DNA of 30,797 bases from a virus. Positions 3,093 to 20,383 of the stretch are shown piece by piece. Each line of letters begins with the position of its first letter. Position 1 is the first letter of the stretch. The translations under genes were made by a program, and so were the position numbers. The stretch is taken from positions 1 to 30,797 of the IMG/VR virus record IMGVR_UViG_3300009788_000242; one strand, 5' to 3'. Under the pieces are notes generated by a model, which saw only the letters and a list, made by a program, of their open reading frames with translations, ran no database searches and was not told the origin of the DNA.

Positions 3093-3143
3093 AACTAGAG
3101 TATGGACCTTCCGGAAGCTCCTGTCAAGAGGAAACTTCCGGAA
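3093..3143 (-). promoter_or_regulatory. leaderless promoter P5 with two TTCCGGAA sites
   Basis: Minus strand: TTGACA (3122-3127), 17-bp spacer, CATACT (3099-3104), 6 nt, ATG 3092. TTCCGGAA at 3109-3116 and 3136-3143, centres 27 bp apart. Confidence 0.84.
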
Positions 3144-3809: not shown

Positions 3810-3870
3810 GACTCAAGAATAAACCTTCCGGAAGCTTTTGTCAACCCTTAAAGTGATTATTTTTCCGGAA
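3810..3870 (-). promoter_or_regulatory. leaderless promoter P6, distal operator 10 bp further out
   Basis: Minus strand: TTGACA (3839-3844), 17-bp spacer, TATTCT (3816-3821), 6 nt, ATG 3809. Proximal TTCCGGAA at 3826-3833. The distal copy is at 3863-3870, 37 bp centre to centre instead of 27, a shift of about one helical turn. That copy also serves the divergent rightward promoter. Confidence 0.82.
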
Positions 3871-3897: not shown

Positions 3898-4152
3898 ATG
3901 GAAGTCAAAAAAGACCCGAGACAGAGACCGGGCGTAATGCCGATGAAACAAGTCCTCGACTGGGGGAAAATTACGCTCATTGCTTTCATCCCGATTCTGC
4001 TCTTGCTCCTCTTGCTTGCGCCTGTCGTCGCGCGTTACTGGACAGTCCAGAGCGCGAGGGCGGAAGCGGAGAAGATCCAGATCATCGGCGACATTCTAGA
4101 GACGCCTGAAGGCGCTCTCTACATCCAATACCTCGAAGGGAAGAACAAATGA
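3898..4152 (+). CDS. small single-pass membrane protein, 84 aa
   Basis: A basic, cytoplasmic-looking N-terminus (residues 1-24) precedes a strong transmembrane helix (ITLIAFIPILLLLLLLAPVV, about residues 26-45), then an amphipathic charged helix (RAEAEKIQIIGDILE). It is the first gene of the rightward run 3898-5771 and starts leaderless, 6 nt after TATTCT. The stop overlaps the next start as ATGA. Function unknown; paired with the next small membrane protein it could belong to a two-component envelope system such as spanins, but no lipobox or diagnostic motif is visible. Confidence 0.75.
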   Translation: MEVKKDPRQRPGVMPMKQVLDWGKITLIAFIPILLLLLLLAPVVARYWTVQSARAEAEKIQIIGDILETPEGALYIQYLEGKNK

Positions 4153-4337
4153 TTCTGATTGATATCGGCTGGAAGCTTTTCGGACTGCTATTGTTGGCGC
4201 TTCTTCTATGGACGTCCATTCGTTCCAAACAAGCGGAGACGCATAAGGCGGAAGCGGATGCCTTCCGGAAACTTGCGGATATGAAGGACGTCGAGCGAGA
4301 TCGAGAGATCGTTGTCGCCAAACTTGGGAAGTCATGA
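4149..4337 (+). CDS. small single-pass membrane protein with charged tail, 62 aa
   Basis: Short protein with one N-terminal hydrophobic helix (LFGLLLLALLLWTSI, about residues 10-24) followed by a highly charged helix (KAEADAFRKLADMKDVERDRE). It is coupled to the genes on both sides by ATGA overlaps (4149-4152 and 4334-4337). The architecture resembles many small phage membrane-anchored proteins; a coiled-coil partner interaction with the preceding product is plausible. No family recognised. It contains TTCCGGAA at 4263. Confidence 0.72.
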   Translation: MILIDIGWKLFGLLLLALLLWTSIRSKQAETHKAEADAFRKLADMKDVERDREIVVAKLGKS

Positions 4338-5771: not shown

Positions 5772-5792
5772 TAGTAAGCTTCTAATCAGGTG

Positions 5793-5828
5793 GAGGGAGT
5801 GCGGCGGTCTTGTCGTGCTCCCTCTTTG
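5793..5828 (+). terminator. possible terminator after thyX
   Basis: GAGGGAG (5793-5799) pairs with CTCCCTC (5818-5824) around an 18-nt loop and is followed by TTTGT. It is modest as a terminator because the loop is large and the U-run short. It lies where an alternative GTG start (5790) of the terminase would be, which favours the downstream ATG. Confidence 0.45.
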
Positions 5829-5903: not shown

Positions 5904-7307
5904 ATGGGCTACGCCTTAGAAAGAGCTATCACCACAGAACGGATCGAGGCGGGGCGTAGAACCTACCGGAAAGATCCCGAACTTTGGGACGCTCAGTTGA
6001 ATATCGTTCTCTCGCGCTATTGGGGAGGACATCGACCCCACTTGCTACAGAAGGTCTTCCTCGCTTGCAGAGAGGATCAAGAAGTATTCTTCGGCGGAGC
6101 GGCGGGCGGAGGGAAGTCTGACGCGCTCCTGATGGGCGCTCTCCAGTTCATGAACATCCCCGGATACTCCGCGCTGATCTTGCGGCGGACATACGCTCAG
6201 TTGGGCAAAGCTGATTCAATCATGTTCCGCGCTCAGCAGTGGTTAGCGAAGTTTCCGGAGATTCGATGGAATGAGCAGAAGCATCAATTCCTGTGGCCGA
6301 ATGGTGCGACACTGGAGTTCGGTCATCTTCAGTACGATAAAGACTGTTGGAATTATGACGGACCCGCCTATCAGTACGTCGCATTCGACGAGCTAACTCA
6401 GTTCACCGAGTATCAATACAAGTTCATGTTCGGGCGCGTGCGAAGACCGAAACAGGGACTCTTGTCGAAAGTTCCGCTTCGGATTCGTGGCGCGAGTAAT
6501 CCCGGAGGAATCGGTCACGATTGGGTTAAAGGTCGCTTCGTTACGAAAGAGACGGCGATTGCTCCCTTCATTCCGGCAATGATCGCTGACAACCCGTCTC
6601 TTGATGCAGTCGCCTATCATCAAATGTTGGCGCATCTTCCGCCGATCCTCCGGAAGCAACGTGAAGAGGGCGATTGGGAAGTCACTCCGGACGGTTTAAT
6701 TTTTCAGTCGGAATGGTTTCAGGACTACGTCGATCAAGCTCCGGTCGATTGCTACCGTTTCCGCTTCTGGGATCTTGCGGCGACAGACAGGAAGGACGCG
6801 GATTATACAGTTGGCGCTCTCGTCGCAATGGATGGGCGCGGAGACATCTTCATCGAAGACATTGTTCGCGGACAATGGAACCCCGGCAAAGTTGAGAACG
6901 TTATCAAGGCGACGGCGGACGCGGACGGTCACGGCGTTAAGATTCGGATAGAGCAAGAACCCGGCGCTTCCGGAAAACTAACGATAGGAAATTTTGCACG
7001 AATCTTGATCGGATATGATTTTCAAGGAGTACCCTCAAGCGGTGCGAAGGTCACGCGATGGACTCCTCTTGCGTCGGCAGCAAATAACGGTCTTGTGAAG
7101 ATCGTCAATGCACCATGGAATCACGACTTCATTAACGAACTGGTAAACGTTCCGGAAGCTGGACACGATGATCAAGCGGACGCGACTTCCGGCGCGTTCC
7201 TCCAATTAGCGAATAATCGTCCGGTCGCCGTGGGCGTTTCACGCATTCGTGGCATCAAGAAGAAGGACGAAGCTAAAGTACAGGACCGAGAAAAGGTGAA
7301 CGCATGA
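5904..7307 (+). CDS. terL: terminase large subunit
   Basis: ATP-driven motor and nuclease that packages phage DNA into proheads. From ATG 5904 the protein has 467 residues. Walker A is GGAAGGGKS (residues 64-72) and Walker B is VAFDE (159-163), followed by the coupling region around SNPGGIGHDW. The C-terminal RNase H-like nuclease starts with FRFWDLAATDRKDADYT (acidic residues 290 and 300) and ends with GHDDQADA. An in-frame GTG at 5790 would add 38 residues, but that stretch overlaps a hairpin and reads like noncoding DNA; neither start has a clear ribosome site. No small terminase was recognised nearby; the unknown gene 4334-4837 is not a convincing candidate. Confidence 0.95.
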   Translation: MGYALERAITTERIEAGRRTYRKDPELWDAQLNIVLSRYWGGHRPHLLQKVFLACREDQEVFFGGAAGGGKSDALLMGALQFMNIPGYSALILRRTYAQLGKADSIMFRAQQWLAKFPEIRWNEQKHQFLWPNGATLEFGHLQYDKDCWNYDGPAYQYVAFDELTQFTEYQYKFMFGRVRRPKQGLLSKVPLRIRGASNPGGIGHDWVKGRFVTKETAIAPFIPAMIADNPSLDAVAYHQMLAHLPPILRKQREEGDWEVTPDGLIFQSEWFQDYVDQAPVDCYRFRFWDLAATDRKDADYTVGALVAMDGRGDIFIEDIVRGQWNPGKVENVIKATADADGHGVKIRIEQEPGASGKLTIGNFARILIGYDFQGVPSSGAKVTRWTPLASAANNGLVKIVNAPWNHDFINELVNVPEAGHDDQADATSGAFLQLANNRPVAVGVSRIRGIKKKDEAKVQDREKVNA

Positions 7308-7963
7308 TTACGATACCTCAATCACTGAACCTGAACTCGGGAATAGATGACTACAAGGAAGACGGACCCGAAGTAGTTCCTTCCGGAAGATCGCAAGTTC
7401 AAACCCTCGTCGAAGACAACGGCGGGAGATTACGCGACGTTCTTCCTTTCGTGCTCTCCATTGTTCAACGTGTGAAGCGCTCGAACAACGTCGCGAATGT
7501 GTCCCATGAGGAGATGATAGCAGTCGCTCTCATGGCGCTTGCGAAGTGTCGTTATCGTTTGAAGCCAAAAAGCGGGAAGCTGACAACTTACGCTTATCGA
7601 GCAGTCAAAGGCGCTATTCAGGATTACATCGCGGGAGAGCTTCGCCACTACGGGAAGGTCACTCCAGTCGATCCCGTCGTGTTTCACGCGCTTCCGGCTC
7701 CGAACCATTTCGAAGAGACACTCTCGAACAAGCGTCTTTTCGAACGAGTTCGCGATGCTTTGGATCGCATCGAACCGTTGAAAGCTTATATTATCCGGAA
7801 GCATTTCCTCGAAGGCGTTCAAGAGTATGTTCTAGCTAAAGAGTTAGGCTTCACAACTCAGAACATCTCTGCTCTCCGGAAGGAAGCTTTCAAGGATATC
7901 CGGGCGATCATCGGAGCGACAGAGACCGGCGCGGGTCAATGGGTCGCTAGTGACGACAATTAA
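7304..7963 (+). CDS. phage sigma-70-family RNA polymerase sigma factor
   Basis: 219-residue protein with the two core sigma domains. Residues 66-112 match region 2: a helix, then KLTTYAYRAVKGAIQDYIAGELR, which resembles the 'F.TYA..RIRGAI.D.LR' block of FliA/SigB-type factors. Residues 143-202 match region 4, with a helix-turn-helix in YVLAKELGFTTQNISALRKEAFKDIR (about 175-200). Region 3 seems shortened, and a proline-rich linker lies between. It would redirect host RNA polymerase, probably to phage middle or late promoters. ATG 7304 overlaps the terminase stop (ATGA), so it is made together with the packaging and head proteins. This position, between terminase and portal, is unusual. Fold assignment is by motif, and promoter specificity is unknown. 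Confidence 0.85.
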   Translation: MITIPQSLNLNSGIDDYKEDGPEVVPSGRSQVQTLVEDNGGRLRDVLPFVLSIVQRVKRSNNVANVSHEEMIAVALMALAKCRYRLKPKSGKLTTYAYRAVKGAIQDYIAGELRHYGKVTPVDPVVFHALPAPNHFEETLSNKRLFERVRDALDRIEPLKAYIIRKHFLEGVQEYVLAKELGFTTQNISALRKEAFKDIRAIIGATETGAGQWVASDDN

Positions 7964-7984
7964 GAAGTGCTAGGAGAACTGACA

Positions 7985-9352
7985 ATGAATTTTACAACCT
8001 CTCTCCAGAAGGCGGGGCGCTTCTTCACGAAGACGGAAGAAGCCCAAACTCCGGGTATTCTGTCCGCTGTCTTTTCAGCTTCCGGAAGCGGTTCCGGAAT
8101 GTTCGGGGGCAAGTTTAGTTTCATGAAAGCTGTAGCTTCCGGATACAAAGATCTCGTTTGGGTCTACCGATGTGTTTCGAAGAAAGGCGAGAGCGTTGGT
8201 TCTGTTCCGTGGAAGGTCTATCGGAAGGCGACGGCAACGACAAGTCGAGAGCATCTAATCGATCATCCGTTACAACGGCTGATCGACCGTCCAAACAAGT
8301 ATATGGATCGGACGCAATTCTTCATTCAGTGGATCTCGGATCTTGACCTTGGCGGAAATTCCTATTGGGAGATCGGACGAGAAGGCGGGAGACCTTCCGG
8401 AATTCCTACGAGTCTTTGGCGCATGCGTCCGGACTGGACAACTCCACGACCGGGGAAAGAAACCTTTCTTCGCGACTACAAGTTTGATTCCGGCGCGGGA
8501 ACCCCGGCGTTCTTCAATGTCGATGACGTCATCCACATGAAGTATATCGATCCAGTTGATCCCTATGTTGGAATGAGCGTGATCCAAGCGGCGGCGCGGA
8601 CGATCCTCACAGAGAACGCGGCTATCGGCTGGAACAAATCGATCCTCGATAACTCGGGTGTTCCGAACGGGATCTTGAAAGTTCCGGCGCAAACAATGTT
8701 GACGATGGACAAAGCCGTTCTTCAGGAGAACATCGAAGACGAGTTTGCTAAAGAAGATTCCCGTCACCGTCCTATGATTCTTTGGGGCGGCATGGAATGG
8801 GAATCGATGTCACTCTCTCAGAAAGACATGGACTTCCTTAACCAGCGGCGCTTCAACAAATTCGAGATTTGTTCGGTTCACGCGGTTCCGCCGATGGTTG
8901 TCGGCGCTCTGGAGAATCCTACTTACTCAAACTACGCGATTGCACGTCTTTCATTCTGGGAAGACACAGTCACACCGTTACTCGATTGGCTTAGGTCCCA
9001 TTTGAACTATCGTCTCGCTCCCGCCTTCGGTCCTGATATCGAGATCGACTATGATCTCTCTCAGGTTCCGGCGATGCGGGAAGCGTTCAAACAGCTTGTT
9101 GATACAGCAAAGACTTTGCATGAAATGAACTATCCGATCAATGCAATCTCAGAGCGGCTCAGTCTCGGAATGGACGCGGTCCCGTGGGGCGATGTTGCTT
9201 GGATTAACCAAAGCTTGATCCCGACTGTTCCCGTTGAAGGCGGGGCGGTTCGACCGGCGGATGAGGAATTGCTAGACGATGAAGGAAACTCGCGCGATCC
9301 TTATCGACTGCAACCGGCTGACGAAGAAGCGCGGCGCGGGCGTCTTATCTAG
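7985..9352 (+). CDS. portal protein, HK97 type
   Basis: Forms the dodecameric channel at the head vertex through which DNA is packaged and to which the tail joins. The 455 residues show the usual features: an early YRCVSKKGESVGSVPWKVYRK segment, DHPLQRLIDRPN, LDLGGNSYWE, a stem and wing region with VIHMKYIDPVDPYVGMSVIQAA, and FEICSVHAVPPMVVG followed by the clip/crown end. I start at ATG 7985, which has AGGAG 8 nt upstream; an in-frame GTG at 7967 lies before that site. It follows the sigma factor gene by 21 nt. Identification is firm at family level. Confidence 0.94.
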   Translation: MNFTTSLQKAGRFFTKTEEAQTPGILSAVFSASGSGSGMFGGKFSFMKAVASGYKDLVWVYRCVSKKGESVGSVPWKVYRKATATTSREHLIDHPLQRLIDRPNKYMDRTQFFIQWISDLDLGGNSYWEIGREGGRPSGIPTSLWRMRPDWTTPRPGKETFLRDYKFDSGAGTPAFFNVDDVIHMKYIDPVDPYVGMSVIQAAARTILTENAAIGWNKSILDNSGVPNGILKVPAQTMLTMDKAVLQENIEDEFAKEDSRHRPMILWGGMEWESMSLSQKDMDFLNQRRFNKFEICSVHAVPPMVVGALENPTYSNYAIARLSFWEDTVTPLLDWLRSHLNYRLAPAFGPDIEIDYDLSQVPAMREAFKQLVDTAKTLHEMNYPINAISERLSLGMDAVPWGDVAWINQSLIPTVPVEGGAVRPADEELLDDEGNSRDPYRLQPADEEARRGRLI

Positions 9353-11841: not shown

Positions 11842-11849
11842 CTACGGAG
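11834..11849. terminator. 16-bp perfect palindrome across two back-to-back stop codons
   Basis: CTCCGTAGCTACGGAG is perfectly symmetric. Its centre TAGCTA is the stop of the rightward MuF gene (11839-11841) joined to the stop of the leftward gene (complement of 11842-11844). RNA from either strand would fold into a tight 6-7 bp hairpin. There is no strong U-run on either side, so a bidirectional terminator is a guess. Confidence 0.45.
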
Positions 11850-12108
11850 TAACGAAGTCGACTTCTTCGAAGAGGTCATCCGGATTGGGGCGATCCTCTT
11901 CGAGCATGATAGAACCCGGAAACGCTTCGAGGATCGGGCGGACAATCGCTTCCTCTTTTTCCGGAATGTAACCCGGTTCAGCTAGGATCAGTTTCGTCTC
12001 AGCGTTCAGATACTCCGTGATGTAGTCTTCCGACGAGGTCCATGTTCCATCTTTCAGCGTCGCTTCGATCTGAACACTGTCGGTTAGGACTAACTGAATC
12101 TTCGTCAT
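11842..12108 (-). CDS. hypothetical acidic protein, 88 aa
   Basis: Last gene of the leftward island 11842-13482. It is strongly acidic, with a strand-rich start (KIQLVLTDSVQIEATLKDG) and a Glu/Asp-rich end (PNPDDLFEEVDF). The pI would be low, which could suit a nucleic-acid mimic or an inhibitor, but nothing specific supports that. The start overlaps the stop of the upstream gene as ATGA (12105-12108), so translation is coupled. It ends exactly where the MuF gene ends on the other strand. A TTCCGGAA lies inside it at 11959. No family recognised. Confidence 0.72.
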   Translation of the reverse strand: MTKIQLVLTDSVQIEATLKDGTWTSSEDYITEYLNAETKLILAEPGYIPEKEEAIVRPILEAFPGSIMLEEDRPNPDDLFEEVDFVTP

Positions 12109-12341
12109 GACTTGATCTTACCCTCTCTGTTCAATCGGCGACAACGTTCCTCGAAGTCAACGATGTCTCCGGAAGGAACCATTCGAAAAGTTCCGTCTCC
12201 TATGACGTCGCATCCGTAGTCTTCTCCTGGCGCGGTCGCGGGGACCGTCTTCCGGATCGGTGTCAAGGTTTCCCTGTCGAGATCATACCCGAGAACGTTC
12301 GGGCGTTCCATGTCGCGAAGCTTGCGTTTGTCTTTGCTCAT
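12105..12341 (-). CDS. hypothetical protein, 78 aa
   Basis: Basic N-terminus (MSKDKRKLRD), then a mixed region ending in DIVDFEERCRRLNREGKIKS, a likely amphipathic helix. I start at ATG 12341, which has AAGGAAG about 9 nt upstream on the minus strand; longer in-frame starts run through a terminator hairpin and are rejected. It overlaps the downstream gene by ATGA. Function unknown. Confidence 0.7.
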   Translation of the reverse strand: MSKDKRKLRDMERPNVLGYDLDRETLTPIRKTVPATAPGEDYGCDVIGDGTFRMVPSGDIVDFEERCRRLNREGKIKS

Positions 12342-12360
12342 TGTTGTTTCTTCCTTGTTT

Positions 12361-12368
12361 TTCCGGAA
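12361..12368. promoter_or_regulatory. TTCCGGAA site before gene 12105-12341
   Basis: Single exact copy, 20 nt upstream of ATG 12341 and directly beside the T-rich tail of the terminator at 12370-12403. There is no TTGACA or -10 at the promoter spacing, so it is an isolated intergenic site of the stoperator type. Confidence 0.55.
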
Positions 12369-12369
12369 A

Positions 12370-12403
12370 ATTAAAGGGAGAGGGTCGATCTCGTTCGACC
12401 CTC
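12370..12403 (-). terminator. intrinsic terminator after gene 12425-12658
   Basis: Perfect 9-bp stem GAGGGTCGA / TCGACCCTC (12380-12388 and 12395-12403) with a 6-nt loop. Read leftward it is followed by CTCCCTTTAATTTT. It separates gene 12425-12658 from the two genes further left, which would need readthrough or a separate promoter. Confidence 0.7.
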
Positions 12404-12424
12404 GGTCCTCCCTCGGTCCCCGTT

Positions 12425-12658
12425 CTAGGCGTCTTCGGGCGAAAGCTCCTCTCCGGTTTGAGCGTCGAGTATAACCCAAGTGTCTTTGGTTCCGATCAGC
12501 AACCGTTGAATCTTGTAGGACCCATGAAGGGTCAGACTCGGAAGTCTTCGAAACTTGTCAAGTCCGATCTTGACCGCGTCTTCGTTGATAGCGGCTTTGA
12601 ATTCCGCTTTGACGCTAAGATGTTCGCGGTAAGTCCAGATCAAACGGTATTGGTGCAT
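12425..12658 (-). CDS. hypothetical protein, 77 aa
   Basis: Small basic protein. It is strand-rich at the start (YRLIWTYREHLSVKAEF), has a helix near residues 20-35, and ends in TWVILDAQTGEELSPEDA. ATG 12658 is chosen because a consensus GGAGG lies 7 nt upstream; a frame extension to 12730 has no initiation signal and overlaps the next gene. It is followed by the terminator at 12370-12403. Function unknown. Confidence 0.72.
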   Translation of the reverse strand: MHQYRLIWTYREHLSVKAEFKAAINEDAVKIGLDKFRRLPSLTLHGSYKIQRLLIGTKDTWVILDAQTGEELSPEDA

Positions 12659-12674
12659 GGTGTGACCTCCAGTG

Positions 12675-12917
12675 TTAGAACTTGTCGTTGAACTCCTCTT
12701 CATTTTCGTACACGAAGACGGCGAGTTCAAAGTACTTGTGATTGACGTAGAGCGGAAACGTCACGATTGCAATCGGCTGAACCGCGCGGAAGGGATCGAA
12801 CTCCGGGTAGGAGACGACAGCGTCTTCCGGCTTGCAGAGAAGCGAGGCTCTCTGGCGGGTAGTGAGGGAGAGCGTAGCGAAGTCACGCATAACGTTGTCA
12901 GTTTCGATTGAAATCAT
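12675..12917 (-). CDS. hypothetical protein, 80 aa
   Basis: Protein with a helical first half (residues 10-35, containing LTTRQRASLL) and a beta-rich second half (IAIVTFPLYVNHKYFELAVFVYE). The ATG at 12917 overlaps the stop of a 26-residue frame upstream (ATGA 12914-12917) and also has GGAG 10 nt before it. It belongs to the SD-led, coupled part of the leftward island. No family recognised. Confidence 0.72.
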   Translation of the reverse strand: MISIETDNVMRDFATLSLTTRQRASLLCKPEDAVVSYPEFDPFRAVQPIAIVTFPLYVNHKYFELAVFVYENEEEFNDKF

Positions 12918-12994
12918 AGTGAGAGATCTCCAAGTCTCGGATAGAGCAAGAACGCGATTACGTCGAGGATCGTGTTTTCGATAGTGAGCAGCAT
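12914..12994 (-). CDS. 26-residue hydrophobic microprotein
   Basis: Very short frame: ATG 12994 with AGGA 8 nt upstream, ending in TGA that overlaps the next ATG (12914-12917). The peptide is hydrophobic in the middle (ILDVIAFLLYP) and so may sit in the membrane. The ribosome site plus the exact ATGA junction argue that it is real, or at least that it is a coupling leader for the next gene. It could simply serve to load ribosomes. Confidence 0.5.
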   Translation of the reverse strand: MLLTIENTILDVIAFLLYPRLGDLSL

Positions 12995-13004
12995 CTCAAG
13001 ATTC

Positions 13005-13178
13005 CTAGAAACGCCCGCGAGAGCAAGCCGAACCGTTCTCATTGAAGTAGACTCCGGTTGCAGTGTGGTTGAACGGAAGCTTCCGGATGATCGAAGGCGC
13101 GAAGTAGAAGATCGCGAACATGAACCCGAAGAAGATTCCCTCGATCAGGTCGGCGTTTGCTGCTAATGTCGTTTCCAT
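13005..13178 (-). CDS. 57-residue membrane protein, leaderless
   Basis: ATG 13178 lies 6 nt after the CATACT box of P7, with no ribosome site, as in the other leaderless genes. The 57 residues contain one aromatic hydrophobic helix (IFFGFMFAIFYFAPSII, about residues 15-31) and a polar C-terminus with one Cys. It is too short for ordinary gene-length cutoffs, but the promoter placement fixes the start. It is followed after 10 nt by the 26-residue frame. Function unknown. Confidence 0.7.
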   Translation of the reverse strand: METTLAANADLIEGIFFGFMFAIFYFAPSIIRKLPFNHTATGVYFNENGSACSRGRF

Positions 13179-13229
13179 AATCTGAGTATGAACCTTCCGG
13201 AAGGATATGTCAAGAGAAAACTTCCGGAA
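13179..13229 (-). promoter_or_regulatory. leaderless promoter P7 with two TTCCGGAA sites
   Basis: Minus strand: TTGACA (13208-13213), 17-bp spacer, CATACT (13185-13190), 6 nt, ATG 13178. TTCCGGAA at 13195-13202 (within CCTTCCGGAAGG) and 13222-13229, centres 27 bp apart. Confidence 0.84.
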
Positions 13230-13251
13230 ACTTAAAAAAACTTTTCTGTGG

Positions 13252-13482
13252 CTATTCCGCCTTCTTCTTCAGGGCTTCCACGATGACTTTGCGGGCTACT
13301 CGTTTTTCATCCAAGTAGAAGGTAGCTCGGAAATGGTCGCGTTGTTGACGTGTCCGCGCTTCTACGGGGACGATGTAGCATTGAAACCTTCCCTCACGGT
13401 AAGAGCCATACCCGCATCGTGTCGCGCTTGCAACCGCTCTCGCCTTTTCGATTAGTTCTGTTAAGGTCAACGTCACTTCCAT
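13252..13482 (-). CDS. hypothetical basic protein, 76 aa, leaderless leftward gene
   Basis: First gene of the leftward island inside the head module. A short N-terminal helix (LTELIEKARAVASAT, residues 7-21) is followed by strands (GRFQCYIVPVEA; HFRATFYLDEKR) and a basic C-terminal helix (KVIVEALKKKAE). ATG 13482 is 6 nt after CATACT of P8. The small alpha-beta-alpha plan and basic charge would allow nucleic-acid binding, but I see no motif. Family unknown. Confidence 0.74.
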   Translation of the reverse strand: MEVTLTLTELIEKARAVASATRCGYGSYREGRFQCYIVPVEARTRQQRDHFRATFYLDEKRVARKVIVEALKKKAE

Positions 13483-13533
13483 AATCCAAGTATGAAGCTT
13501 CCGGAAGGATATGTCAAGCGAAAACTTCCGGAA
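13483..13533 (-). promoter_or_regulatory. leaderless promoter P8 with two TTCCGGAA sites
   Basis: Minus strand: TTGACA (13512-13517), 17-bp spacer, CATACT (13489-13494), 6 nt, ATG 13482. TTCCGGAA at 13499-13506 and 13526-13533, centres 27 bp apart. It is divergent from the protease operon. Confidence 0.84.
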
Positions 13534-13599
13534 AGTTAAAGAAAGTTTTCAGCGAAGATGGGGAGGACCTCCGGAAGGACTCGCGCGACTCTCAGCACA

Positions 13600-13613
13600 A
13601 ACCGATAATTAAC
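13600..13613 (+). promoter_or_regulatory. CCGATAATTAAC box upstream of the protease operon
   Basis: CCGATAATTAAC at 13602-13613 recurs exactly at 19968-19979; each is about 50 nt before the first gene of a rightward operon. GATAAT is one base from the sigma-70 -10 consensus, and CCGATAA resembles the FliA-type -10 (GCCGATAA). No clear -35 of either class is visible. The remaining part of the 13534-13659 gap holds no gene. Confidence 0.5.
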
Positions 13614-13659: not shown

Positions 13660-14613
13660 ATGCTCCGAAAAAAGATCGACCCTGACCTGACAAAAGTCAA
13701 AGTCGTGGAGGAAGAAGGTTCTGACGCTGGATTCCTCGAAGGCTATGCCAGTGTGTTCAATAACGTCGACCTGGGAGGCGACGTCGTCCGTAAAGGCGCT
13801 TTCAAGAAAACGATCAAAGAGCGATTGAAGAAGGGGATGATTCTCCTCTACGACTCGCACGCGGTCTATGAAGGAACAAGCGCGGTCATCGGCGTCGTCA
13901 CGAAGGCGGAAGAGCGCGACGAAGGTCTTTGGTTCCATGCTCCGTTCTCCGCTGTCTCGCGTGCGCAAGACGTTCGAACAAAGGTTCGAGAGAAGATCCT
14001 GAAGGCACTCAGCTTTGGGTATGACGTGATCAAGTCGCAACCCTCCACTGAATTCGGCGAGGATGTTGCAGAGTTGACAGAGCTTCGGCTTTGGGAGATC
14101 TCAGTTGTTCCGTGGGGAATGAATCCGAAGGCGGCGACTGATGTTGTTAAGGGAATCGGTCTCGGACAAGAGTTCGCATTCGCGGCGAAGGATCATCCGT
14201 TCGACCCTGTCGGCGCTCGGAAGCGCATCGCGGAGTGGGCGGAAAACGATCCGTTCCTCTACTCGAAGGCGTTCGTATGGGCGGATGCGGAGAACGATCA
14301 ATCTCCGCTCGGGTACGCGCTTCAAGTTGTTGACATCGTCGACGGGGAACCCAAGTACATTTTGAACGCGGCGAAGACGGCGCTCAGTCGGACTCGTGGC
14401 GACGAAGACGCTGTCTGGAAGAAAGATAGCGACGCTATCGTAATCGACCTGAAGACTCTCTATCAGAAGGTCGAAGAGGAATTTCCGGGAGTGGAGACTC
14501 CGGACGAAGATTTTCAGGGTCTGTCCGAACTGTCGAAAGGCGTTCAGGATTTCGCCCTCGTAACATCCCTCCGGAATATTCGTGAGGGATTGGGAACATT
14601 GTCCGCGAAGTAG
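13660..14613 (+). CDS. prohead maturation protease, HK97 type, with C-terminal extension
   Basis: Serine protease that clears scaffold and delta domains during head maturation. Residues 25-165 show the family: GYASVFNNVDLGGDVVRKGAF, His67 in LLYDSHAVYEG, Ser118 in KALSFGYDV, and LRLWEISVVPWGMNPKA. A C-terminal part (about 180-270; HPFDPVGARKRIAEWA ... DGEPKYILNAAKTAL) resembles a separate module found on several phage head proteins that may act as scaffold or ligand. AGGAAGG lies about 11 nt before ATG. It is the first gene after the leftward island. Confidence 0.92.
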   Translation: MLRKKIDPDLTKVKVVEEEGSDAGFLEGYASVFNNVDLGGDVVRKGAFKKTIKERLKKGMILLYDSHAVYEGTSAVIGVVTKAEERDEGLWFHAPFSAVSRAQDVRTKVREKILKALSFGYDVIKSQPSTEFGEDVAELTELRLWEISVVPWGMNPKAATDVVKGIGLGQEFAFAAKDHPFDPVGARKRIAEWAENDPFLYSKAFVWADAENDQSPLGYALQVVDIVDGEPKYILNAAKTALSRTRGDEDAVWKKDSDAIVIDLKTLYQKVEEEFPGVETPDEDFQGLSELSKGVQDFALVTSLRNIREGLGTLSAK

Positions 14614-14645
14614 GCGGGTGACCTCGGTCACTACTTAGACACTTC

Positions 14646-14653
14646 TTCCGGAA
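14646..14653. promoter_or_regulatory. TTCCGGAA site between protease and capsid genes
   Basis: Exact copy in the 121-nt gap 14614-14734. The gap also holds a GTGACC-TC-GGTCAC inverted repeat just after the protease stop; it has no U-run. No promoter boxes like P1-P8 accompany the site. Confidence 0.5.
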
Positions 14654-14734
14654 GCCGTTAGAGTACGCCGACAGAGGGTTTGGCAGCCGATCCTTGATCA
14701 CTGCGAGAGAGACTTCGAAACAGGAAAGGGAATC

Positions 14735-17097: not shown

Positions 17098-17127
17098 CGA
17101 AGTCGCCTTTCGCGACGGTCCGGATGA

Positions 17128-17163
17128 GATCTCGCGCCTTTCGGGGCGCGGGGTCTTGTCCTT
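17128..17163 (+). terminator. strong intrinsic terminator after the capsid group
   Basis: GATCTCGCGCC (17128-17138), 6-nt loop, GGCGCGGGGTC (17145-17155): 11 paired positions counting G-U pairs. It is followed by TTGTCCTTTG. A smaller GTCGC/GCGAC hairpin lies just before (17102-17116). It divides head genes from connector and tail genes. Confidence 0.75.
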
Positions 17164-19220: not shown

Positions 19221-19627
19221 GCGAAGACAAAGAACAGTTAAGACCGGGGGAAGAGTGGGAATACTTTGACGAAGACCCTCCGGAAGAAACACCGTCCGCG
19301 CCTCAATCTCAAGAGGAGATTGACAAAGAGCGCGGCTACTCTCAACTCAGTTGGAAGACCTTCCCTCTCTTCCAGTGTCTCTCCTGCAAGTTCAACCACG
19401 TCGCAGCGGACGGAGACGAAACAAACATAAAGGCACACGTCTGGAAGTTTCACCAAATGGCGGAGAACCTTGCCATGAACGCGGCACTCGAAAGCGTGAA
19501 GCGTCCGGTCGAAGCGGAACTTTATGATCCTTCCGGAAAGCTAATCTCTGAACGCGACGCGACCGAGGAAGAACGCGCGGGAGATTCCTTCCTAGACTTC
19601 GAACCTCCGCAGACTCTTAACGGCTAA
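19217..19627 (+). CDS. small acidic protein with C2H2-type zinc-binding motif, 136 aa
   Basis: ATG 19217 overlaps the previous stop (ATGA). The first 40 residues are acidic and Pro/Glu-rich and probably disordered. Residues 52-80 read FQCLSCKFNHVAADG...KAHVWKFH, giving Cys54-x2-Cys57 and His74-x4-His79, a classical C2H2 zinc-finger spacing with a long middle. The C-terminal third is again acidic. It lies at the end of the neck/tail completion group and its stop overlaps the convergent leftward gene by 4 nt. It could bind DNA or a partner protein; function unknown. Confidence 0.72.
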   Translation: MSEDKEQLRPGEEWEYFDEDPPEETPSAPQSQEEIDKERGYSQLSWKTFPLFQCLSCKFNHVAADGDETNIKAHVWKFHQMAENLAMNAALESVKRPVEAELYDPSGKLISERDATEEERAGDSFLDFEPPQTLNG

Positions 19628-19923
19628 CCGACGAACTGTCTCCAGTCCTCGCAAATTGCTTTCGCGACGACAGGGTTCTTCATGTCGTCGACAAAGGGCA
19701 TGATCGGCTGTAACTTCTTTCCCATTGTCAGCACAGTCATAAACAAATCGAACCCGGCGTTCAGATCGCTGAGTTCTTGGGGCGTCAGTTTGTATCGAAC
19801 TGTGACCGCTCCACTATCACGGGACATGACCGCAGGGAGCGTTTGAAATTCCGACTGATCTTCCGCGATCTTAATCTTCCGGAAAGATTCGTCTCCAATG
19901 AATACAGGATCTTGAGGTGACAT
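19624..19923 (-). CDS. hypothetical protein, 99 aa, lone leftward gene
   Basis: A single leftward gene among rightward tail genes. It starts with a polar segment, then KIKIAEDQSEFQTLPAVMSRDSGAVTVRYKLTPQELSDLNAGFDLFMTVLT in the middle, and ends in a helix (NPVVAKAICEDWRQFV). ATG 19923 lies 6 nt after TATTCT, as in the leaderless group. A TTCCGGAA lies inside the gene (19877). Its strand, isolated position and promoter style make it a likely moron. No family recognised. Confidence 0.72.
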   Translation of the reverse strand: MSPQDPVFIGDESFRKIKIAEDQSEFQTLPAVMSRDSGAVTVRYKLTPQELSDLNAGFDLFMTVLTMGKKLQPIMPFVDDMKNPVVAKAICEDWRQFVG

Positions 19924-19966
19924 GGTTTTAGAATACGCGCTTCTCCCGGCGCGGTTTCCTTCCGGA
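19924..19966 (-). promoter_or_regulatory. degenerate leaderless promoter of gene 19624-19923
   Basis: TATTCT (minus, 19930-19935) ends 6 nt before ATG 19923, exactly as in P1-P8. There is no TTGACA at 17 bp and no TTCCGGAA in the spacer; a TTCCGGAC is found further up (19960-19967). It looks like a family member without the operator, perhaps constitutive or weak. Confidence 0.5.
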
Positions 19967-19979
19967 CCCGATAATTAAC
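19967..19979 (+). promoter_or_regulatory. CCGATAATTAAC box upstream of gene 20030
   Basis: Second exact copy of the 12-mer seen at 13602-13613, again about 50 nt upstream of the first gene of a rightward operon. Possible -10 element for the host or phage sigma factor; no -35 match. The rest of the 19924-20029 gap holds only the leftward promoter and the AGGAT ribosome site of gene 20030. Confidence 0.5.
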
Positions 19980-20029: not shown

Positions 20030-20383
20030 ATGGCAAGAGTAAGTTTAACAAAGACAACCGCTCCGGGTCCGTACACAGCGGATGGCGTCGCAATCACTTG
20101 GACGGCGGCAGACACTACCAACAAAGAAGAGTTCGTCATGGAGGGTAACGACCTCCTCCTCGTCCGCAACGAAGATGCTTCTCCGCACACCTTCACGATT
20201 ACATCGGCGGCGGATGCAATGGGACGACTCGGAACTATCGCGGGTGAATCCCTTGCGGCGAGCGCGTGGAAGTGTCTCGGACCATTCAAGAAACTAACCG
20301 GCTGGCAGCAGTCGACAGGCGTCCTCTACATCGAAGCGGATGACGTCAACATCGAATGGGCGATTATCAAGCTCAGCAACTAG
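20030..20383 (+). CDS. putative virion protein, 117 aa, tandem paralogue A
   Basis: Beta-rich protein with no signal peptide. Recognisable segments are GPYTADGVAITWTAAD, NKEEFVMEGNDLLLVRNEDASPHTFTI, and GPFKKLTGW followed by LYIEADDVNIEWAIIKL. The next gene encodes a protein of exactly the same length with these segments in the same order, so the two arose by tandem duplication. Encoded just before the tail tube, it is likely a tail or head surface protein. AGGATCT precedes the ATG. First gene of the operon that carries the tail genes. Confidence 0.78.
   Translation: MARVSLTKTTAPGPYTADGVAITWTAADTTNKEEFVMEGNDLLLVRNEDASPHTFTITSAADAMGRLGTIAGESLAASAWKCLGPFKKLTGWQQSTGVLYIEADDVNIEWAIIKLSN

Follow-up and report, generated by a model that had tools for sequence, protein, structure and literature searches.

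Sigma-70 family protein between terminase and portal

Why does a tailed phage carry a gene for a sigma factor between its large terminase and portal genes, and where would the encoded protein direct transcription? We addressed this question in a virus record of 30,797 bases, called the window below. The window carries the genes of a tailed phage whose head is of the HK97 type, namely, large terminase, portal, Mu F-like head protein, S78 protease, HK97-family capsid, connector proteins, and tape measure. The gene of interest lies 3' of the large terminase gene and 5' of the portal gene, and the S78 protease and HK97-family capsid genes are further along (Table 1).

The 219-residue protein matched Pfam Sigma70_r2 (PF04542) at residues 45 to 110, with 30.4 bits against a cut-off of 24. 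It also matched the NCBIfam model TIGR02937 ("sigma70-ECF") at residues 46 to 200, with 49.3 bits against a cut-off of 42.9. In PHROGs, it matched PHROG 351 ("RNA polymerase sigma factor") at E 1.7e-15 and phrog_248 ("transcriptional activator") at E 0.0073. No small-terminase profile was found among its Pfam or PHROGs matches. The initial annotation had called the gene a sigma factor and had proposed profile searches and structure prediction, with a small terminase-like or other helix-turn-helix family lacking region 2 as the opposite outcome. The two scores above cut-off uphold the call, and we rejected that other outcome on the Sigma70_r2 score. The reading frame encodes a sigma-70 family protein, for which core binding and transcription initiation are predictions.

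Both conserved sigma regions had been described as recognizable. Region 2 is supported by Pfam. Region 4 was recovered through TIGR02937 and through the SigG/SigBFG models, which align residues 147 to 202, and no sigma region 4 model matched in the Pfam search. Among solved structures, the closest relative by sequence is FliA in PDB 1rp3 (E 0.0016, residues 129 to 203). About 30 residues separate region 2, which ends at 110, from region 4, which begins at about 141. There is no space for sigma3, and this domain is therefore absent. With sigma2 and sigma4 only, the protein has the two-domain layout of ECF (group IV) factors. No anti-sigma factor was named among the PHROGs matches of the scanned reading frames. 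The FliA_WhiG model TIGR02479 aligned with residues 46 to 109 at 26.7 bits, and its family cut-off of 189.6 was not reached. With this score and no sigma3, we rejected membership in FliA/WhiG (group III).

The full-length structure model was weak (mean pLDDT, 48). In a Foldseek search with it, ECF sigma factors were on top among the matches listed, none of which had an E value of ≤0.001. A model trimmed to residues 40 to 207 was better yet modest (mean pLDDT, 67). With the trimmed model, all 50 of the 50 matches listed were sigma factors or RNA polymerase complex chains, with E ≤ 0.001 in one, and WhiG, SigB, and FliA led among them. The earlier description of region 2 as being of the FliA/SigB kind agrees with these matches and with the TIGR02479 alignment.

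Table 1. Coordinates of the features discussed (position 1 is the first base of the window)
Feature	Position	Strand	Basis or remark
Terminator-like hairpin in the thyX/terminase gap	5792..5825	+	15 pairs in the window, then T-rich tract; conserved in three genotypes; folding z -4.0 to -6.2
Terminase large subunit	5904..7307	+	Start 5904 set by comparison with relatives; longest reading frame begins at 5790
ATGA overlap (sigma ATG 7304-7306, terminase TGA 7305-7307)	7304..7307	+	Sequence GCATGATT; kept in L004 (G001) and L005
Sigma-70 family factor, sigma2-sigma4 architecture, 219 aa	7304..7963	+	ATG start; Pfam, NCBIfam, PHROGs, Foldseek
Sigma region 2, residues 45-110, FliA/WhiG-like	7436..7633	+	PF04542; TIGR02479 residues 46-109
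Sigma region 4, about residues 141-203, helix-turn-helix	7724..7912	+	TIGR02937 to residue 200; 1rp3 alignment residues 129-203; Foldseek matches to -35 binding domains
Portal protein	7967..9352	+	Profile matches
Early-type promoters TTGACA-N17-(T/C)ATNCT (n = 8)	1443-1471, 1897-1925, 2215-2243, 2569-2597, 3099-3127, 3816-3844, 13185-13213, 13489-13517	-	ATG 6 nt downstream
Site 1 upstream block GACTCGCGCGACTC, candidate -35	13578..13591	+	Window/G001 alignment
Site 1 CCGATAATTAAC, candidate -10	13602..13613	+	58 nt before protease ATG; alignment, repeat search
Prohead protease (S78), first gene after site 1	13660..14613	+	Profile matches
Site 2 upstream block TCCCGGCGCGGTTT, candidate -35	19944..19957	+	Comparison with site 1
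Site 2 CCGATAATTAAC, candidate -10	19968..19979	+	62 nt before ATG of first tail gene; repeat search
Weakly tail-like gene, first after site 2	20030..20383	+	phrog_16194, E 0.0018

Conservation of the gene and its position

In IMG/VR, our scans turned up four more contigs from this phage group: L003, G001, L019, and L005. L003 matches the window exactly over 8,294 bases. G001 (L004; also L013 and L016) has 22,890 bases, and L019 is 99.9% identical to it. L005 is a short contig of a distinct genotype. We therefore counted three genotypes, namely, the window with L003, G001 with L019, and L005. All three have the sigma gene between terminase and portal. It always encodes 219 residues, and its start always overlaps the terminase stop as ATGA (at 6751/6754 in G001 and 2117/2120 in L005), in line with the translational coupling that had been proposed. 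The sigma proteins of the other two genotypes are 84% and 77% identical to that of the window, and Sigma70_r2 matches the protein of each genotype (E ≤ 1). The dN/dS ratio of the gene is 0.068 between the window and G001, at a dS of 1.29, and 0.14 to 0.15 against L005. By these ratios, the gene is kept by purifying selection.

Outside the group, the sigma protein had no match at E ≤ 1 in INPHARED (50,697 phage records), and a search of bacterial genome contigs with the sigma and terminase proteins found no relatives. A plasmid search gave two weak matches, both annotated as sigma-70 family factors; the one inspected had no phage context. The two nearest annotated terminase relatives that we inspected, psiM100 and GMA6, have a small terminase annotated just 5' of the large one and, in the part inspected, no annotated sigma gene between the large one and the genes that follow. 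No small terminase was recognized in a PHROGs scan of the window's reading frames, some short ones being left out, and a divergent one may have escaped it. Literature searches, largely confined to open papers, brought up no phage with a sigma gene placed between its large terminase and portal genes.

Early-type promoters on the minus strand

All eight TTGACA-type matches in the window, and eight of the nine in G001, are on the minus strand with an ATG exactly 6 nt past the -10 hexamer. Every one of these carries a TTCCGGAA operator in its spacer, and the ninth G001 match has neither feature. A looser scan of the first 20 kb gave 14 promoter-like sites against 7.7 expected; these include weaker matches on both strands, which we leave out of the early-type set. 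From its sequence, the early minus-strand set looks like leaderless genes under the host main sigma factor.

The most frequent 8-mer is the palindrome TTCCGGAA, with 54 copies in the 30.8-kb window and 42 in the 22.9 kb of G001. No copy was found in L010, L012, L014, L015, L017, or L018. Pairs of copies 27 bases apart flank early -35 elements at 1453/1480, 2225/2252, 2579/2606, 3109/3136, 13195/13222, and 13499/13526. Many further copies fall in coding DNA, where we take them to be comparable to stoperators or HIP1-like repeats. In a search of open papers, none of those listed contained TTCCGGAA.

Two candidate late promoters

In both the window and G001, small early-type minus-strand genes (at 11842-13482 and 19624-19923 in the window) break up the late plus-strand cluster, and late transcription must therefore restart after them. 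The initial annotation had suggested a search for a shared promoter motif before late genes, and such a search yielded a promoter-like pair. CCGATAATTAAC has two plus-strand copies. Each has a GCGCG block upstream in register, and the two sites also share CGNANANGG downstream in register. When the stretch before the protease gene was aligned with that of G001, it showed two conserved blocks separated by a variable gap, the second of which contains CCGATAATTAAC. Both sites are kept at the same places in G001; silent sites differ between the window and G001 at 46 to 63% in the five genes measured. With gene limits set by hand, 107 exact 11-mers are repeated in 2,643 noncoding bases, and the sole direct repeat outside the early promoter/TTCCGGAA family is CCGATAATTAA(C). 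With one mismatch allowed, the octamer CCGATAAT has a site within 120 nt upstream of 2 of the 27 plus-strand starts, at distances of 58 and 62 nt. These are the two starts at which plus-strand genes resume after the minus-strand genes. Both sites are followed by 5' leaders with purine-rich, Shine-Dalgarno-like stretches. Late operons preceded by a nonhousekeeping motif, here at two conserved candidate sites, are what a phage late sigma factor calls for.

In chance tests, a common 12-mer arose in 31 of 20,000 shuffles of this region pair and, for any pair among 11 regions, in 55 of 1,000 shuffled sets. The sample is two sites per genome in effectively two covering genotypes, as L019 is nearly G001 and L003 equals the window. 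Position, conservation, and register together make a moderate statistical case for the predicted sites. A published method likewise locates the promoters that phage sigma factors use by looking for intergenic motifs that are well conserved and low in copy number (PMC4331800).

Against the two sites, good conservation without the late motif is also seen in noncoding stretches such as the one before the capsid gene. A third site there (GCAGCCGATCCTTGATC, conserved) looks alike by eye. We rejected it because the weight matrix passed over this part and its octamer does not match even when one mismatch is allowed. Conservation in G001 is strong across 14614-14734, 5' of the capsid gene, where there are an inverted repeat, TGACCTCGGTCA, and a copy of TTCCGGAAG.

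Motif matches in other viruses came to eight stretches, three of them from the phage group itself (L013 and L016, which are G001, and L019). Four of the motif-bearing viruses (L012, L014, L015, and L018) have no similarity to 13 window proteins. For L017, similarity is limited to remote matches to terminase (28%) and portal (26%), and its motif lies inside a reading frame at 3927-4265. We take the copies in these five viruses as chance, not as sites of relatives. When the site 1 region was searched against phages, there were two matches, about 23 bases long and with an E value of 1.

Possible link between the protein and the candidate sites

Flagellar-clade sigma factors, WhiG included, recognize a -10 element GCCGATAA and a -35 element TAAA, as given in PMC2859248 and PMC8325347. 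The phage octamers ACCGATAA and CCCGATAA are each one base off the flagellar -10 element (7/8). The flagellar -35 TAAA is absent at the phage sites. Region 2, which reads the -10 element, is the part of the 219-residue protein that aligns to FliA/WhiG. We noticed the likeness to GCCGATAA after the conserved block had been found, and it played no part in finding it. This agreement between region 2 and the -10 element is a suggestive link between the protein and the candidate sites. A further idea, which we consider unlikely, is that the protein is a captured flagellar/WhiG-type sigma factor that has lost sigma3. It would have kept the ancestral -10 (CCGATAA), and its region 4 would have turned to a new -35 (GCGCG). 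The packaging operon would then hold the switch that turns on the head and tail operons, and host flagellar-type promoters might also be readable.

Proposed late circuit and alternatives

We think that the 219-residue protein is probably a phage late sigma factor that acts like gp47 of phage 7-11, at the two candidate sites. Host RNA polymerase with its housekeeping sigma factor would transcribe the early minus-strand genes, to judge from their promoter sequences. The terminase-sigma-portal message would be made next, whether from a promoter or by read-through. The sigma factor would then bind host core polymerase through region 2 and bring it to two promoters that are low in copy number and have the pattern GCGCG-N14-CCGATAATTAAC, one serving the protease, capsid, and connector genes and the other serving the tail genes. 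This proposal is built on the protein's homology to sigma factors, on a gene position and overlap that are conserved, and on the pair of conserved sites at the points where plus-strand genes restart. From these, we infer site recognition by the 219-residue protein, the transcription start points, and the order in time. Terminase and portal are usually late products, and their sharing an operon with the sigma gene argues against a late sigma factor. The absent flagellar -35 element, the weak structure models, and a sigma operon that has a terminator-like hairpin upstream and no copy of the motif before it also count against the proposal.

The protein could instead be a sigma factor for phage genes whose real sites lie elsewhere, the CCGATAATTAAC pair being a coincidence or another conserved element. 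There are two sites only, and the 55 of 1,000 shuffled sets with a common 12-mer fit this reading. However, it is made unlikely by the GCGCG and CGNANANGG blocks in register, the near-equal distances to the ATG, the placement at both restart points, and the conservation in G001. ArpU/LtrC-type proteins have been suggested to be sigma-like activators that no longer work as full sigma factors. We regard it as fairly improbable that the 219-residue protein is such a late activator and aids the host holoenzyme at both sites. Its small size, the missing Pfam region 4 match, the weak structure models, and the phrog_248 match would suit an activator, but its clearest match is to region 2, the core-binding and promoter-melting part, and neither site has an early-type TTGACA-17-(T/C)ATNCT promoter.

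A genuine sigma factor might also turn host polymerase to host genes, for example, at flagellar/WhiG-type promoters, with the phage sites belonging to another regulator. The likeness of region 2 and the octamer to the FliA/WhiG clade is consistent with this, and PMC9429907 describes some phage sigma factors that act on host development. Nonetheless, the packaging operon houses the gene and late operons are exactly what the conserved sites precede, so we find this quite improbable. Very improbable is a packaging protein that replaces the small terminase and binds DNA through the region 4 helix-turn-helix. The coupling to the large terminase and the lack of a small terminase among the scanned reading frames would agree with it. 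However, a region 2 match is unexpected in a small terminase, the matches above curated cut-offs are sigma families, and a divergent small terminase may have been missed.

Relation to known systems

Phage sigma factors as such are not rare: at least one occurs in 13.4% of 4,350 phage genomes, and 86.6% have none, by the figures of one survey given in PMC9429907. In mode of action, gp47 of Salmonella phage 7-11 is, by analogy, the closest. As described in PMC8948821, this factor, like phiEco32 gp36, sends host core polymerase to a few late promoters, as we predict for the 219-residue protein, and gp47 uses a bipartite motif, GTAAtg-16-aCTA. The motif and spacing differ from those found here. 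The gene setting also differs: in 7-11 and phiEco32, the sigma gene is in a minus-strand cluster of functional genes, according to PMC4331800, whereas here it is in the late-strand packaging operon.

With respect to architecture, judged by description, the closest known two-domain phage factor is Xpf of the Bacillus subtilis prophage PBSX. Xpf controls the late operon of PBSX and is a precedent for sigma-like late-operon control; its gene adjoins the terminase genes there. Xpf is termed a positive control factor in PMC10141391, and it is likewise a small sigma2-sigma4 (group IV) phage factor. Our gene differs from Xpf in its place between large terminase and portal and in its FliA-like region 2. 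The protein resembles FliA/WhiG (sigma-28) in its region 2 alignment and in an octamer one base from GCCGATAA, but it scores far below the family cut-off, lacks sigma3, and has no TAAA -35 at its candidate sites. It shares with ECF factors the two-domain layout and the TIGR02937 score above cut-off. It departs from them in the likeness of its region 2 and candidate -10 to the flagellar clade, and no anti-sigma factor was recognized among the PHROGs matches.

Predicting which promoters a phage sigma factor uses is difficult, and here a factor and two candidate sites were paired from sequence alone. With this pairing, one can test directly how a sigma2-sigma4 factor whose region 2 is FliA-like recognizes promoters. 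The pairing also suggests a transcription plan for an uncultivated phage group, with leaderless early genes and leadered late genes.

Transcription of the sigma operon

The initial annotation had considered a positive loop for late genes. We searched upstream of the sigma operon for the late motif and found no copy. A positive loop is therefore unsupported, and we rejected a self-activating sigma gene. The hairpin at 5792-5825 may act as a terminator or belong to a packaging signal. Because it lies between thyX and the terminase gene, the sigma operon may need its own promoter or read-through. A divergent plus-strand, promoter-like TATTCT at about 3889 is a candidate promoter for upstream genes. 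Another terminator-like hairpin, with 18 pairs, lies at 17122-17161 between two connector-region genes.
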